The notes under the pieces: model-generated
The model's database searches: none
What the model was told of the DNA's origin: nothing
The model's input: the letters and a program-made list of their open reading frames with translations, nothing else
Program-made: the position numbers and the translations under genes
Shown: one piece after another, positions 9,109 to 14,213 of the stretch
Position numbering within the stretch: the stretch's first letter is position 1
Layout: each line of letters starts with the position of its first letter
Assembly (NCBI RefSeq): GCF_900102015.1
Contig: NZ_FNAT01000001.1
Location: 1 to 64,000, forward strand
Reading direction: 5' to 3'
Length of the DNA: 64,000 bases
Source of the DNA: Limimaricola pyoseonensis
Lineage (GTDB): Bacteria > Pseudomonadota > Alphaproteobacteria > Rhodobacterales > Rhodobacteraceae

Positions 9109-10272
9109 ATGCCGATCAAGAACCGTTTCGCCGAGCTCCTGCCCGAGATCACCGCCTGGCGGCACGACCTGCACGAGAACCCCGAGATCCTCTACGACAC
9201 CCACCGCACCTCCGGCGTCGTCGCCGAGAAGCTGCGCGCCTTCGGCTGCGACGAGGTGGCCGAGGGGCTGGGCCGCACCGGCGTGGTCGGCGTGATCCGC
9301 GGCAAGCAGACGAACTCGGGCCGGGTGATCGGCCTGCGCGCCGACATGGACGCGCTGCCGATCCACGAGCAGACCGGCAAGCCCTACGCCTCGAAGACCG
9401 ATGGCGCGATGCATGCCTGCGGCCATGACGGCCACACCTCGATGCTGCTCGGCGCCGCGAAGTACCTGAGCGAGACCCGCAACTTCGACGGCACCGTGGT
9501 GGTGATCTTCCAGCCCGCCGAAGAGGGCGGCGGCGGCGGCCGCGAGATGTGCGAGGACGGGCTGATGGAGCGCTTCGGCGTGCAGGAGGTCTACGGCATG
9601 CACAACTGGCCGGGCATCCCGCTCGGGCAGTTCGCGATCCGCCCCGGCGCCTTCTTCGCCTCGACCGACCAGTTCGAGATCACGATCGAGGGCAAGGGCG
9701 GCCACGCCGCCAAGCCGCACGAGACGGTCGACTCGACGCTGGTGGCGAGCCACGTGGTGATCGCGCTGCAATCGATCGCCAGCCGCAACGCCGACCCGAC
9801 CGGGCAGATCGTGGTTTCGGTCACCTCCTTCGAGACCTCGTCCAAGGCCTTCAACGTGATCGCCCAACGGGTGACGCTGAAGGGCACGGTGCGCACCATG
9901 TCGCCCGAGTTCCGCGCCATGGCGCAGGAGCGTCTCACCGCCATCGCCGAGACCACGGCGCGGGCCTTCGGCGCGACCGCCAAGGTGAACTACATCAAGG
10001 GCTACCCGGTGATGATCAACCACGAGGCCGAGACCGAGTTCGCGGCCGAGGTGGCGCGCGCGGTGTCGGGTGACTGCGCCGAGGCGCCGCTGATCATGGG
10101 TGGCGAGGATTTCGCCTACATGCTCGAGGAGCGCCCCGGGGCCTACATCCTCGTCGGCAACGGCGACACGGCCTCGGTGCATCACCCGGAATACGACTTC
10201 TCGGACGAGGCGATCCCGTCGGGCTGCTCGTGGTGGGCGGAGCTGGTCGAGCGGCGGATGCCGGCGGCCTGA
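9109..10272 (+). CDS. M20D-family N-acyl-amino-acid amidohydrolase
   Basis: Two-metal amidohydrolase of the HipO/AbgB/IAA-amino-acid hydrolase group that removes an acyl group from an amino acid or related amide. Metal and catalytic residues are visible in RADMDALPIHEQTGKP, MHACGHDGHTSML, FQPAEEGGGGGREM and MGGEDFAYMLEERPGA. The lid or dimerisation domain lies about residues 190-300. It is 387 residues, normal for the family. It is convergent with the glycosyltransferase gene, with only 7 bp between stops. Substrate is unknown. Confidence 0.93.
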   Translation: MPIKNRFAELLPEITAWRHDLHENPEILYDTHRTSGVVAEKLRAFGCDEVAEGLGRTGVVGVIRGKQTNSGRVIGLRADMDALPIHEQTGKPYASKTDGAMHACGHDGHTSMLLGAAKYLSETRNFDGTVVVIFQPAEEGGGGGREMCEDGLMERFGVQEVYGMHNWPGIPLGQFAIRPGAFFASTDQFEITIEGKGGHAAKPHETVDSTLVASHVVIALQSIASRNADPTGQIVVSVTSFETSSKAFNVIAQRVTLKGTVRTMSPEFRAMAQERLTAIAETTARAFGATAKVNYIKGYPVMINHEAETEFAAEVARAVSGDCAEAPLIMGGEDFAYMLEERPGAYILVGNGDTASVHHPEYDFSDEAIPSGCSWWAELVERRMPAA

Positions 10273-10279
10273 GCGCGCC

Positions 10280-10900
10280 TCAGCCCTTGCGGTGGACGAA
10301 GCGCGGATCGGTGCTGAGCAGCATCTCGACGAAGAGCCGCTCGGCATCGAAATCATGCGGCACCTGCGTGGCGTCGCGCCGGCCCGACAGCGACTTCGAC
10401 GCGAAGAAGTCGAAGCCGTAGAGCGCGGCGCGGCTGACGCCGGAGCGGGCCAGCAGGTCGATCACCATCAGGCCGGTGGTGGCCGGGGCGTCCAGCCGGC
10501 GCCGCAGCCGCGCGTTCTCGTCCGCGGGGTTGAGGTGGAACCCCTCGCGCCGGGCTATACGCCAGGGCAGGCGCTTGCGCTTTGCCGTCATCCACAGCAG
10601 CAGGTCGGGCCGGCGGTCGCGGAGCGTGGCCTCGGGCACCGGGGTGGACATGGCGAGCCAGTCGGTGCGGCTGCCATGCGAGCGCGCGGCGGGCATCGGC
10701 GCGGAATTGAGCCGGATCACCAGGTCGGCCATGTCGATCTCGCGCCCGAAATCGGTGGCGGCGAGGGCGCGGGCATTGCCGACCAGCGCCACGCGCCGGC
10801 TCTCCAGCCGCTCCAGCAGCGCGGCGCGCGGCAGGCCCAGCGTGGAGAGTTGCGCCTCGTCCTGCCGGAACTTGGCGATCTCGAAGCGGAGCCGGTTCAT
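10280..10900 (-). CDS. GT29 sialyltransferase-like glycosyltransferase
   Basis: 206-residue cytosolic protein carrying recognisable GT29 sialylmotifs. Motif L is at residues 37-80 (VALVGNARAL, then GREIDMADLVIRLNSAP and GSRTDW). Motif S is at 140-164 (ATTGLMVIDLL, YGFDFF). An H-x4-E motif VS is at 182-187 (HDFDAE). These families transfer from CMP-sugars, and I infer a CMP-linked nonulosonate or Kdo donor. There is no signal peptide. The start at 10900 overlaps the upstream pyruvyltransferase-like stop by 4 bp (ATGA), indicating coupled translation. It is the last gene of a moaA-waaA-containing minus-strand unit. Confidence 0.82.
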   Translation of the reverse strand: MNRLRFEIAKFRQDEAQLSTLGLPRAALLERLESRRVALVGNARALAATDFGREIDMADLVIRLNSAPMPAARSHGSRTDWLAMSTPVPEATLRDRRPDLLLWMTAKRKRLPWRIARREGFHLNPADENARLRRRLDAPATTGLMVIDLLARSGVSRAALYGFDFFASKSLSGRRDATQVPHDFDAERLFVEMLLSTDPRFVHRKG

Positions 10901-11886
10901 CTGCGCGCCTTCGCCAGCGCCGCGAGATCGGAGAAGAGCGCCTCGGCCCGGGTCTGCGCGGTTTCCAGGAAGGCACGGATGGCAGCGGTCTCGCGCGGCT
11001 CGAAATCCCGGCGCGCGGGCAGGTCGTCGGCCTCGTCGAGCGCGATGAGCCGGTCGAGGCCGAGCCCCGAATCCGAAAGAAGGCGTTCGATCTTCGAGGC
11101 GTTGGAGGCCAGCGCCAGGAACGGCGTTTCGGTCAGCATCGACAGGCACACGGCGTGGAACCGGCCGGTGAGGTGCAACCGGGCCGCGGCGATCCGTTCG
11201 AGATAGGCCGCCTCGTCGCGCGGCATCTCGAGCGGCGGCAGCCGTAGCCGCCCGTACCAGGCGCTGGCCAGGGCGGCGCGGGCCGGGGCGGCGCTCCAGA
11301 TCTTCGAGCGCAGGGTCTTGGTCGGCACCAGCCGCGCCTGCGGCAGGCGCGCGGCGGCGGCGCCGAGCACGCGGCGCGGCGCGGGTTTCACGCTGTCGCC
11401 GACGATCACGCCGTTGCGCCGGGTGGGGGACACCTCGGCCGGGGCCGAGAGCGACAGGTCCGGCAGCCAGCGCACGTCCCGGCCGCTGGCCAGGCGCATC
11501 GCCTCGGCGCTGGCGCTGTCGCGCGCGGCGATCAGGTCGAAGCGGCGCAGCCGCGCGCCCCACTCGTCGGGGTTGTGCTCCCAAAGCGCGTTGACCAGCG
11601 CCAGGGGGGTCTGGCCGCGAGCCGGGTGATCGGCGACCTTCAGAAGCGCCGCGCCGGCGGCGCGGCCGTGATGCAGCGTGCCCTCGCCGTTGACGACGAT
11701 CAGGCTGGCGCGCTTCATCTCGCGCAGGAAGGCCTCGTCGCGGGTCCAGTCGTTGCGCGCCGGGCTGCGGGCGGTCACGTCCAGCCCGTGGCGTTCGAGC
11801 CCATCGACGAGAAGCCGCATCACCCGGGCGCAGCCGTGATGATAACGGGTCGAAGTGTCGTTGAGTATGACGGCGGTACGGGTCAT
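10897..11886 (-). CDS. Polysaccharide pyruvyltransferase-like protein
   Basis: 329-residue protein of the CsaB/WcaK polysaccharide pyruvyltransferase superfamily, which puts ketal pyruvate on surface sugars from PEP or has a related role. Visible signatures are ASLIVVNGEGTLHHG, LIAARDSASAEAMR and GRFHAVCLSMLTETPFLALA near the C-terminal donor site. It lies 39 bp after waaA and overlaps the GT29-like gene by 4 bp. The context suggests decoration of LPS core or another glycan. Acceptor and activity are inferred only. Confidence 0.82.
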   Translation of the reverse strand: MTRTAVILNDTSTRYHHGCARVMRLLVDGLERHGLDVTARSPARNDWTRDEAFLREMKRASLIVVNGEGTLHHGRAAGAALLKVADHPARGQTPLALVNALWEHNPDEWGARLRRFDLIAARDSASAEAMRLASGRDVRWLPDLSLSAPAEVSPTRRNGVIVGDSVKPAPRRVLGAAAARLPQARLVPTKTLRSKIWSAAPARAALASAWYGRLRLPPLEMPRDEAAYLERIAAARLHLTGRFHAVCLSMLTETPFLALASNASKIERLLSDSGLGLDRLIALDEADDLPARRDFEPRETAAIRAFLETAQTRAEALFSDLAALAKARR

Positions 11887-11925
11887 GGCGCCGGTTGCAT
11901 AGGCGGTTTCATCGGGCGTTGTAAG

Positions 11926-13188
11926 TCATTCCTCGTCGCACAGGCGGCGCAGCGCCGACAGCGTCCGCAGCCGTGCCGCGCCGCGATCCGCCATGACCCG
12001 CCCCGCCGCGGTGCGCATCGCCGCGAGCTCGTTCGAGCCGAGCAGGTCGGCCAGAACGGCGCCGATCGCCTCGGGGCGCTCGACGCAGCGCGCGGCCCCG
12101 GACCGGTCGAGCGCGGCATAGGCGGCCGGGGCGTTGTGCAGGCGCGGCCCGTGCAGGAGCGCCGCGCCGAGCCGGGCCGCCTCCCAGGGGTTGTGCCCGC
12201 CCTGCGGGCCGAACGAGCCGCCCAGAAACACCAGCGGCGCCAGCCGGAAGATCAGGCCGGTCTCGCCGATCGCGTCGACCAACCAGACCTCCTGCGACCC
12301 CGGGCCCGCCGTCTCGGTATGCCGGGCATGGGAAAGACCGGCTTGCTCCAGCAGCGCGGCCACGGCGTCGGCGCGCTCGGGGTGGCGCGGCGCGAGGACC
12401 AGCCGCAGGCCGGGATGCCGTGCCCGGGCCTGAAGATGGGCGGCGATGACCGCCTCCTCGTCGCCGGCATGGGTGGAGACCGCGGCCCAGAGCGGCGCGT
12501 CCGCGATGGCCTGCCGCGCCGCGGCCAGCCGCTCGGCATCGACGGGCAGCGGCGCGGCGGCGGCCTTGAGGTCGCCCGGCACGGTGATCCGGTCGCGCGC
12601 GAAGCCGAGCGCCGCGATCTCGGCGGCGACGTCCTCGTCCTGCGCGGTCACGAGGCCGAAGCCCTGCATCAGCGCGGCGGTCAGGCGCGGCGCGCGGGCC
12701 CGGCTGCGCGAGGGTCGCGCGTTGAGCAGCGCCAGCGGCACGCCGCGCTCGCGGGCCTCGGCGAGCAGGCGGGGCCACAGGTCGCCCTCGACCATGCAGG
12801 CGAGATCCGGCCGCCAATGATCGAGGAACCGCCGCGCGGCCCGCGCGGTGTCGAGCGGCAGGTACTGGTGGATCACGCCCGCCTCGATGCGCGCCGCGCG
12901 CGCCGCGCCGGTCGAGGTGGTGGTCGTGACCAGCACCCGCCAGCCGGCCTCCGCGAGGTCGCGGGCCAGGTCGGCGATGGAGGCCACCTCGCCGACGGAG
13001 GCGGCGTTGATCCAGCACAGACGCCCCTCGGGACGGGGGCGGGTGGCCCGGCCGAGCCGCTCGGCCAGGCGGTCCGGCGCGGCGCGCTGACCGTCATGGA
13101 CCCGGCGGGCGATCCGGTCCTCGACGGGCCGCGGTAGCGCCGCCGATCCGCCGAGCCACAGTCGCAGCGGCCAGGGCGTGCCGCTCAT
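11926..13188 (-). CDS. waaA: 3-deoxy-D-manno-octulosonic acid (Kdo) transferase
   Basis: Transfers Kdo from CMP-Kdo to lipid A precursor at the cytoplasmic face of the inner membrane. WaaA signatures are [53 protein letters not shown] and the GT-B C-terminal half. The 420-residue length is typical. The start overlaps the moaA stop by 4 bp (ATGA), so the two are translationally coupled although functionally unrelated. The usual N-terminal membrane anchor is weak here ([14 protein letters not shown]). Confidence 0.94.
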
Positions 13189-14213
13189 CCGCCGGTGTGG
13201 CTCATGTGGCGGCTGACGCGGCCCGCGACATCCTCGCGCGAGTAGTCGAAATCATGCCCCTTGGGCTTGAGCGCGATCGCGGCGCGGATCGCCCGCTCGA
13301 GCGTGGCGTCGCCCTCGCTCGAGCGCAGCGGGCCCCGCAGGTCGGAATGGCCCTCCTGCCCGAGGCAGGTGTAGATCTCGCCGGTGCAGGTCACGCGCAC
13401 CCGGTTGCAGCTTTCGCAGAAATTGTGGCTCAGGGGCGTGATGAAGCCCACCCGCTGGCGCGTCTCGCCCAGCATGACGTAGCGCGCGGGGCCGCCGGTG
13501 CGGTCGGGCAGGTCGTGCAGCGTGTAGCGCCGCGCCAGATCCGCGCGCAGGTCCTGCAGGCTCCAGTACTGGCCGATCCGGTCCTCGTTGCCGATGTCGC
13601 CCATCGGCATGACCTCGATGAAGGTCAGGTCCATGTCGCGGGCGGCGCAGAACTCGGTGAGCGCGAAGAGCTCGTCCTCGTTGAAGCCCTTGAGCGCGAC
13701 GGTGTTGATCTTGACGCGCAGACCGGCGGCGAGGGCGGCGTCGATCCCGGCCAGCACCTGCGGCAGCCGGCCCCAGCGGGTGACGCGGGCGAACTTCGCC
13801 TCGTCGAGCGTGTCGAGCGAGACGTTCACACGGCGCACCCCGGCGGCGTAGAGATCCTTCGCGTGGCGGCCGAGCTGGCTGCCATTCGTGGTCAGGGTCA
13901 GCTCCTTCAGCGCACCGGTTTCGAGATGCCGGCCCATGGCGGCGAAGAAGGTCATGATGTCCCGGCGCACCAGCGGCTCGCCGCCGGTGATGCGCAGCTT
14001 CTCGACGCCCAGCCGGACGAAGGCCGAGCAGAGGCGGTCGAGCTCCTCCAGCGTCAGAAGCTCGGCCTTGGGCAGGAACTGCATCTTCTCGGACATGCAG
14101 TAGACGCAGCGGAAATCGCAGCGATCCGTCACCGAGACCCGCAGGTAGCGGATCGCCCTCGCGAAAGGATCGACGAGGGGGACGGCAGGCTGCGGGATGG
14201 GTGCGGCTGTCAT
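13185..14213 (-). CDS. moaA: GTP 3',8-cyclase (molybdenum cofactor biosynthesis)
   Basis: Radical-SAM enzyme for the first step of Moco synthesis (GTP to 3',8-cH2GTP). The N-terminal cluster motif C32-x3-C36-x2-C39 sits in [11 protein letters not shown]. The C-terminal cluster is in [16 protein letters not shown], and the protein ends in the conserved Gly-Gly pair (HTGG). The 342-residue length is usual. It heads the minus-strand unit moaA-waaA-pyruvyltransferase-GT29. No other Moco genes are in the window. Confidence 0.96.

Follow-up and report, generated by a model that had tools for sequence, protein, structure and literature searches.

A GT29-Like Protein Encoded next to waaA in Limimaricola pyoseonensis as a Candidate Kdo Transferase of the Lipopolysaccharide Core

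Results and Discussion

The locus

The window analyzed here, that is, the whole 64,000-nucleotide stretch at the start of contig NZ_FNAT01000001.1 of Limimaricola pyoseonensis, carries a gene for a 206-residue protein resembling glycosyltransferase family 29 (GT29). It is preceded on the same strand by moaA, by waaA, encoding the transferase of 3-deoxy-d-manno-oct-2-ulosonic acid (Kdo) in the lipopolysaccharide (LPS) core, and by a gene for a polysaccharide pyruvyltransferase-like protein, designated pyr in the gene orders below (Table 1). The start codon ATG of the GT29-like gene (10900-10898) shares bases with the stop codon TGA of the pyruvyltransferase gene (10899-10897) as ATGA, 39 nt lie between the latter gene and waaA, and the start of waaA is overlapped by 4 nt by moaA. 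Because of these overlaps and the short gap, with all genes on the minus strand, moaA-waaA-pyr-GT29 look like one transcription unit. The initial annotation had described a 206-residue product with sialylmotifs L, S and VS that is translationally coupled to a pyruvyltransferase-like gene; coordinates, motifs and overlap were all verified. From its sequence and genomic context the protein is considered, with moderate confidence, to be an inverting transferase using cytidine 5′-monophosphate (CMP)-Kdo and adding α-Kdo to the LPS inner core, most likely onto the Kdo laid down by WaaA.

Table 1. Features of the locus, with positions in the window.
Feature	Position	Strand	Basis
GT29-like glycosyltransferase, 206 residues, proposed LPS-core Kdo transferase	10280..10900	−	Pfam PF00777; predicted model compared with ST3Gal1
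Sialylmotif L region, residues 38-69, VGN...IDMADLVIRLNSAP	10694..10789	−	Homologue alignment and alignments with GT29 structures of the Protein Data Bank (PDB)
Sialylmotif S region, residues 139-164, PATTGLM...LYGFD	10409..10486	−	Second HMMER segment against motif S of ST8SiaIII/ST3Gal1
Motif VS, residues 181-187, P-H182-D-F-D-A-E187; H182 is the proposed catalytic base	10340..10360	−	Retention of the His
ATGA stop/start overlap of the pyruvyltransferase and GT29 genes	10897..10900	−	Sequence
Polysaccharide pyruvyltransferase-like protein, 329 residues, GT-B fold	10897..11886	−	Pfam PF04230; predicted model
WaaA, Kdo transferase (GT30)	11926..13188	−	Pfam PF04413; five NCBIfam Kdo-transferase models below equivalog cut-offs
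moaA, at one edge of the variable slot for LPS-core genes	13185..14213	−	Pfam Mob_synth_C and Radical_SAM; common border
M20 peptidase, at the opposite edge of the variable slot for LPS-core genes	9109..10272	+	Pfam PF01546; common border

Sequence family and predicted fold

The 206-residue protein matched Pfam PF00777 with 36.1 bits (E 6.3e-9; cut-off 23), and no NCBIfam model matched it at E ≤ 1. A profile of 23 homologues reached mammalian GT29 chains at E ~8e-9, covering ST8SiaIII and ST3Gal1 at motif L and again, weakly, at motif S. When the AlphaFold2 model (23 sequences; mean predicted local distance difference test score (pLDDT) 91.6, predicted TM score 0.89) was searched against PDB with Foldseek, mammalian GT29 chains came first (2wnb_A, E 9.3e-8). 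Structural comparison of this predicted model with VIA gave ST3Gal1 (2wml) as the best match (Z 16.4, root-mean-square deviation 3.4, 190 residues aligned), followed by ST6GalNAc2 (Z 15.0), ST8SiaIII (Z 14.6) and ST6Gal1. All of the 14 best rows were GT29 enzymes, and below them stood an archaeal hydroxymethyldihydropterin pyrophosphokinase (HPPK, Z 12.2), GT42 Cst enzymes with Z values no higher than 11.2, and SteA (Z 10.4). The GT29 core proposed from the motifs was thus found in the predicted structure.

The sialylmotifs read V40-G41-N42 ... GREIDMADLVIRLN-SAP (L), P139-A-TTGLM...LYGFD (S) and H182-x4-E187 (VS). The motif VS His, the residue singled out in the initial annotation, was retained in 57 of the 58 rows having a residue there (60 aligned rows, 2 gaps); its equivalence to the catalytic His of ST3Gal1 is presumed from the ends of the alignment ranges. 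Membership of the GT29 sequence family and, for the predicted model, the GT29 fold are confirmed. A chance match of the motifs was considered as well and is excluded by the conservation among homologues, the profile and the fold. The fold and motifs L, S and VS are held in common with mammalian ST3Gal1, ST6GalNAc2 and ST8SiaIII, whereas these enzymes use CMP-N-acetylneuraminic acid (CMP-Neu5Ac), are larger, and show 18-22% identity in the structural alignments.

Donor supply in the source genome

In the source genome (completeness 99.99%) no match to NeuB (PF03102) was obtained at E ≤ 1, and 10 of 14 control genomes were positive in this search. CTP_transf_3 (PF02348) gave one match over the cut-off, at C12:276401-277072, which was identified as KdsB by NCBIfam NF003950 (295 bits, cut-off 234); against the TIGR00466 kdsB model it scored 144.4 bits, below the cut-off of 155.2. 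The other PF02348 match, a GlmU-like gene in the window, had 21.7 bits, below the cut-off. Since NeuB was not matched and KdsB is the sole CMP-sugar synthetase over the Pfam cut-off, CMP-Kdo is left as donor; it is the only CMP-ulosonate that the cell appears able to make, a conclusion reached by elimination and not a proof.

Two clades of GT29 genes in the family

With the GT29 family profile, 53 of the 394 genomes sampled from the taxonomic family of the source organism were positive, and several kinds of GT29 are among the 53. This sample holds about one genome per genus, by which relatedness was reduced, not removed. Pfam PF00777 was positive in 2 of 385 genomes of a class sample, source included; as the model may miss divergent forms, no absence is claimed.

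Nine of the GT29 genes form one clade (support 99/99), and all nine genomes are NeuB-positive. In 8/9 the GT29 gene is clustered with genes for NeuB, NeuC, a cytidylyltransferase and two WaaA proteins encoded side by side; in the ninth (G147) it is located at the end of a contig, and the genes for NeuB, NeuC and two WaaA lie on a different one. The NeuC representative passed an NCBIfam equivalog (TIGR03568, 350.9 bits, cut-off 235.9), the best model for the NeuB representative was N-acetylneuraminate synthase TIGR03569 (339.4 bits, below the cut-off of 399.65), and the cytidylyltransferase representative reached no NCBIfam cut-off. The lipooligosaccharide (LOS) core of Loktanella rosea is reported to contain, as α-Neu-(2-8)[α-Kdo-(2-4)]α-Kdo (Neu, neuraminic acid), ulosonic acids only (PMC3210612). 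The gene content of the NeuB-linked clusters is such as would be expected for a core of this kind.

The GT29 gene of the window belongs to another group, called here Kdo-type. It comprises 36 genomes of the family sample (35 with a profile score of at least 250 bits, and G416), or 42 with six congeners of the source (G001-G004, G006, G007); G013 and G014 (205-209 bits) were placed by the tree on the side of the NeuB-linked clade and were left out of the count. NeuB was found in 2/36 Kdo-type genomes and in 116/358 other genomes of the family (Fisher p 4e-4; 7e-4 when the background excludes the nine NeuB-linked genomes), in a test that was not blind, the clade limits having been set after scores and context were seen. 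In the two positive genomes NeuB is unlinked to the GT29 gene, on another contig in G031 and ~366 kb away in G284. The homologues are thus not confined to genomes with sialic-acid genes, and a Neu-type and a Kdo-type can probably be distinguished among the bacterial GT29 proteins. Within the Kdo-type clade the order of branching stayed open in the tree, in which 25 of the 54 inner branches were undecided, the bootstrap had not settled and long branches were flagged.

These counts bear on whether the protein of the window is a true sialyltransferase or a transferase of another nonulosonate, supplied with a CMP-nonulosonate by uptake or by an unrecognized synthase. The animal GT29 enzymes use CMP-Neu5Ac and the NeuB-linked clade sits with neuB and neuC. 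CTP_transf_3 matches above 50 bits numbered one in 35 of the 42 Kdo-type genomes, two in six (G005, G006, G031, G195, G284 and G291) and none in one, which is 89% complete, so that a second CMP-sugar synthetase might be at hand in a few of them. The source genome, however, has neither a NeuB match nor a second such synthetase over the cut-off, NeuB is depleted in its clade, and a free sugar taken up from outside would still require a CMP-sugar synthetase. Nonulosonate transfer is accordingly regarded as quite unlikely, and Kdo is preferred as the sugar.

The motif VS signature H[DN]F..E was conserved in 40/41 rows of the Kdo-type clade, the lone exception being one half of a gene that is broken into two frames. 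This gene (L135:7067-7683, in G416) is divided by a frameshift or an assembly error. A GT29 remnant, in decay or already inactive, could be supposed in the window too, as the protein has 206 residues against the 272 positions of the PF00777 model and no known activity, and as this one relative is split. The core residues are kept across the Kdo-type clade, however, and the GT29 gene was present in 8/8 examined genomes of the genus, the seven congeners showing 62-68% identity with gene order intact, all of which makes a remnant very improbable.

Gene neighborhoods and a shared chromosomal slot

The order waaA-pyr-GT29 was found in 14/42 Kdo-type genomes: in the window, in the seven congeners and in six further genera. 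The statement of the initial annotation that the GT29 gene follows waaA consequently holds in the window and fails as a general rule; waaA linkage is one of several arrangements and a minority, and genomes with waaA and pyr beside GT29 do not form one clade in the tree. A GT4 glycosyltransferase gene, by clustering, stood directly upstream of GT29 in 15 of 41 loci with a profile score >180 (the 41 including L004, L007, L008, the second copy of G193, as well as L097 and L098 from the other side of the tree), and GT4 was fused to a C-terminal GT29 domain in two single open reading frames (ORFs), L128:7545-9362 (605 residues) and L130:6443-8167 (574 residues). In the Rhizobium loci L007 and L008 the GT29, pyruvyltransferase and GT4 genes lie close together in mixed orientation. 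This GT4 protein may correspond to rhizobial LpcC, which acts on inner-core Kdo; against NCBIfam it matched generic GT4 models only, below their cut-offs, and no close copy was found in the source genome (best 36% identity over about half of the protein). In a divergent GT29 gene (L087:7703-8845, in G205) one open frame begins with an N-terminal folate HPPK domain (PF01288), a candidate fusion.

In one relative the place of the GT29 locus is taken by another ulosonate cassette. Locus L090 (G147:C5:206000-221000) runs glmU-glmS-...-moaA, then neuB, neuC, waaA, waaA, a short-chain dehydrogenase/reductase gene, a cytidylyltransferase gene and an oxidoreductase gene, then the M20 peptidase gene. 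Its borders, moaA and M20, are those which flank waaA-pyr-GT29 in the window, and its GlmU, GlmS, MoaA and M20 proteins show 70-81% identity to the window proteins. Locus L133 reads moaA-waaA-pyr-M20, with no GT29.

The pyruvyltransferase-like neighbor

The protein encoded next to the GT29 gene matched Pfam PF04230 with 45 bits (cut-off 25.3), and its predicted model (pLDDT 93.8) has a GT-B fold. The solved yeast Pvg1p came first in the VIA comparison (Z 18.9, 257 residues aligned) with many GT-B enzymes within 1, and 16th with Foldseek; the fold search does not discriminate within GT-B, and the assignment is therefore carried by the profile match. A homologue was detected in 22 of the 394 family genomes. 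In two distant relatives a GT29 domain is followed by a pyruvyltransferase domain in a single ORF (L091:7340-9487, 715 residues; L092:6874-9183, 769 residues, in which Asn replaces the motif VS His), a fusion which speaks for a functional connection of the two enzymes and is silent on the acceptor. α-Kdo carrying pyruvate at O7 and O8 is on record for the K-antigen-like exopolysaccharide (EPS) of Cobetia marina (PMC6801904), so that a pyruvylated terminal Kdo is chemically precedented. In another genome (G175), a waaA cluster (L138, G175:C10:336000-352000) was observed in which a pyruvyltransferase-like gene separates neuB from neuC; this genome was absent from the GT29 positives of the family profile search over the 394 genomes.

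Points against an inner-core Kdo transferase

Several observations weigh against inner-core Kdo transfer by the Kdo-type proteins. No waaA linkage was seen in 28/42 Kdo-type genomes. Some relatives sit behind genes of the major facilitator superfamily (MFS) or of UDP-sugar dehydrogenases, and the 1355-residue ORF L093:5553-9620, less than 6 kb from two cytidylyltransferase genes (G273:C5), joins tetratricopeptide repeats and a distant GT29 domain to a Capsule_synth domain, so that the acceptor could be another glycan. The pairing on the Neu-type side is not tight either: of the 118 genomes in the family sample that are NeuB-positive, 109 are not among the nine with NeuB-linked GT29, and the neuB-waaA-waaA clusters L088, L090 and L138 contain no GT29 gene. 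Finally, near the presumed position of sialylmotif III, YYNP with its aromatic pair was found in 9/9 NeuB-linked rows and S-[LTF]-[ST]-G in its place in all 40 Kdo-type rows with the region, which may reflect either a donor-related difference or altered catalysis.

An alternative is a Kdo transferase acting on a capsule, an EPS or an outer-core or O-chain cap, and not on inner-core Kdo. GT29 genes behind GT4, MFS or UDP-glucose dehydrogenase genes in other genera, the distant capsule-synthesis fusion, and the pyruvylated Kdo of Cobetia would all suit such an enzyme. It is nevertheless judged unlikely, since waaA itself is the partner in the window and in 13 other genomes and a neuB-waaA cassette fills the same slot in one relative. 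The departure at motif III, together with the non-glycosyltransferases among the related folds (archaeal HPPK and SteA), would agree with the transfer of a modified eight-carbon acid, such as d-glycero-d-talo-oct-2-ulosonic acid (Ko) or amino-Kdo, or with a donor other than a CMP-sugar. Little probability is given to this reading, as motifs L and S are intact and KdsB is the sole CMP-sugar synthetase over the cut-off, in a survey that did not extend to genes of Kdo modification. Transfer of Kdo itself to the inner core is thus retained as the preferred function.

Proposed function and comparison with known systems

The protein would act as an inverting GT29-fold transferase, presumably in the cytoplasm. 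GT29 enzymes are metal-independent, and the same is supposed for this one. Motifs L and S would bind CMP-β-Kdo, His182 would accept the proton of an acceptor hydroxyl, and with departure of CMP an α-ketoside would form with inversion. By analogy with the Neu-(2-8)-Kdo of L. rosea, the acceptor would most likely be an inner-core Kdo, and the pyruvyltransferase-like enzyme would probably cap a core sugar, plausibly the new terminal Kdo, with a ketal derived from phosphoenolpyruvate. Donor, acceptor, linkage and pyruvyltransferase target are all inferred.

With WaaA (GT30), whose gene lies two genes upstream, the protein would share the transfer of Kdo from CMP-Kdo to the inner core of LPS; WaaA is a GT-B enzyme unrelated to GT29. 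The window WaaA matched PF04413 (Glycos_transf_N) with 160 bits (cut-off 23.9) and five NCBIfam Kdo-transferase models with 186.6-279.8 bits, all below the equivalog cut-offs (best 279.8 against 617), so that its name rests on the Pfam domain. The source genome has a second, diverged WaaA-like gene (L139:3370-4428, on C12), in which the domain match starts somewhat upstream of the listed start, beside a putative lpxK gene. Two or three PF04413 matches were found in 54/59 genomes searched. Three candidate ulosonate transferases in the source genome would fit a core of three ulosonates.

Lst of Neisseria, presumably a GT52 enzyme, and LsgB of Haemophilus differ from the present protein in belonging to another sialyltransferase family and in having terminal galactose as acceptor. 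They are reported to cap LOS with Kdo from CMP-Kdo when CMP-Neu5Ac is absent (PMC8092323). In plants, the GT29 protein RCKT1 is described as needed for Kdo on rhamnogalacturonan II, an in vitro assay being not yet achieved according to these reports (PMC11288761, PMC12168206). Arabidopsis RCKT1/MGP2 and the present protein are alike in their family, in a host with little or no sialic acid and in Kdo as the inferred sugar; the plant enzyme differs in its pectin acceptor, and the two are likened by family, not by specific sequence kinship.

Bacterial GT29-like sequences are themselves on record: Petit et al. 2018 listed 23, of which 19 are alphaproteobacterial, with others from gamma- and epsilonproteobacteria, described motifs L, S, III and VS in them, and suggested that the eukaryotic enzymes are of bacterial descent (PMC5811610). 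Like the present protein, those sequences are proteobacterial, mostly alphaproteobacterial, and carry sialylmotifs, with no transmembrane anchor or disulfide cysteines, and they were loosely tied to the LPS of marine bacteria such as Loktanella (PMC5811610). Unlike here, no gene neighborhoods, no split into NeuB-linked and NeuB-lacking forms and no bacterial Kdo role were noticed in that paper (PMC5811610). In the literature consulted, mainly open-access, no paper assigning Kdo transfer to a bacterial GT29 and no assigned function for a bacterial member were found. What is new here is the proposed Kdo role and the gene context, the bacterial sequences having been reported before. The suggestion of the initial annotation that a bacterial GT29 role may be uncharacterized accordingly stands for the function and not for the genes. 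Its proposal that a further Kdo or nonulosonate is added to the LPS core is partly supported and can be sharpened to probably Kdo here and Neu in the NeuB-linked clade.

A wider proposal is put forward tentatively. Within one family the GT29 proteins may have split into a Neu-type, associated with neuB, neuC and two waaA genes and a Loktanella-like ulosonate-only core, and a Kdo-type, associated with waaA and a pyruvyltransferase gene or with GT4, and either cassette could fill the slot between moaA and M20. The Kdo-type would then be the first known bacterial GT29 Kdo transferase, making a pyruvate-capped poly-ulosonate core.

Experimental Section

Genes in the neighborhoods were called with an own ORF and clustering script, and one representative per named cluster was checked against Pfam. 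Loci L002, L003, L005, L006 and L009 were omitted from the tree and from the neighbor count as repeats of L111, L099, L103, L101 and L100, respectively; L135b, L094 and L136 were also omitted from the tree, and L135 from the neighbor count.

Conclusions

The protein described here would be a variant within GT29, familiar as the family of the animal sialyltransferases, and not an enzyme of a new kind. With 206 residues, and encoded beside a Kdo transferase in an organism that seems devoid of sialic acid, it may serve as a small test case of how a CMP-sugar transferase picks Kdo or sialic acid. Its relevance extends to plant RCKT1, for which an in vitro assay has been difficult to establish, and to the suggested descent of eukaryotic sialyltransferases from bacteria, and the comparison of the two clades would make the biosynthesis of the L. 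rosea LOS core, described in the "Against the rules" paper, directly testable.

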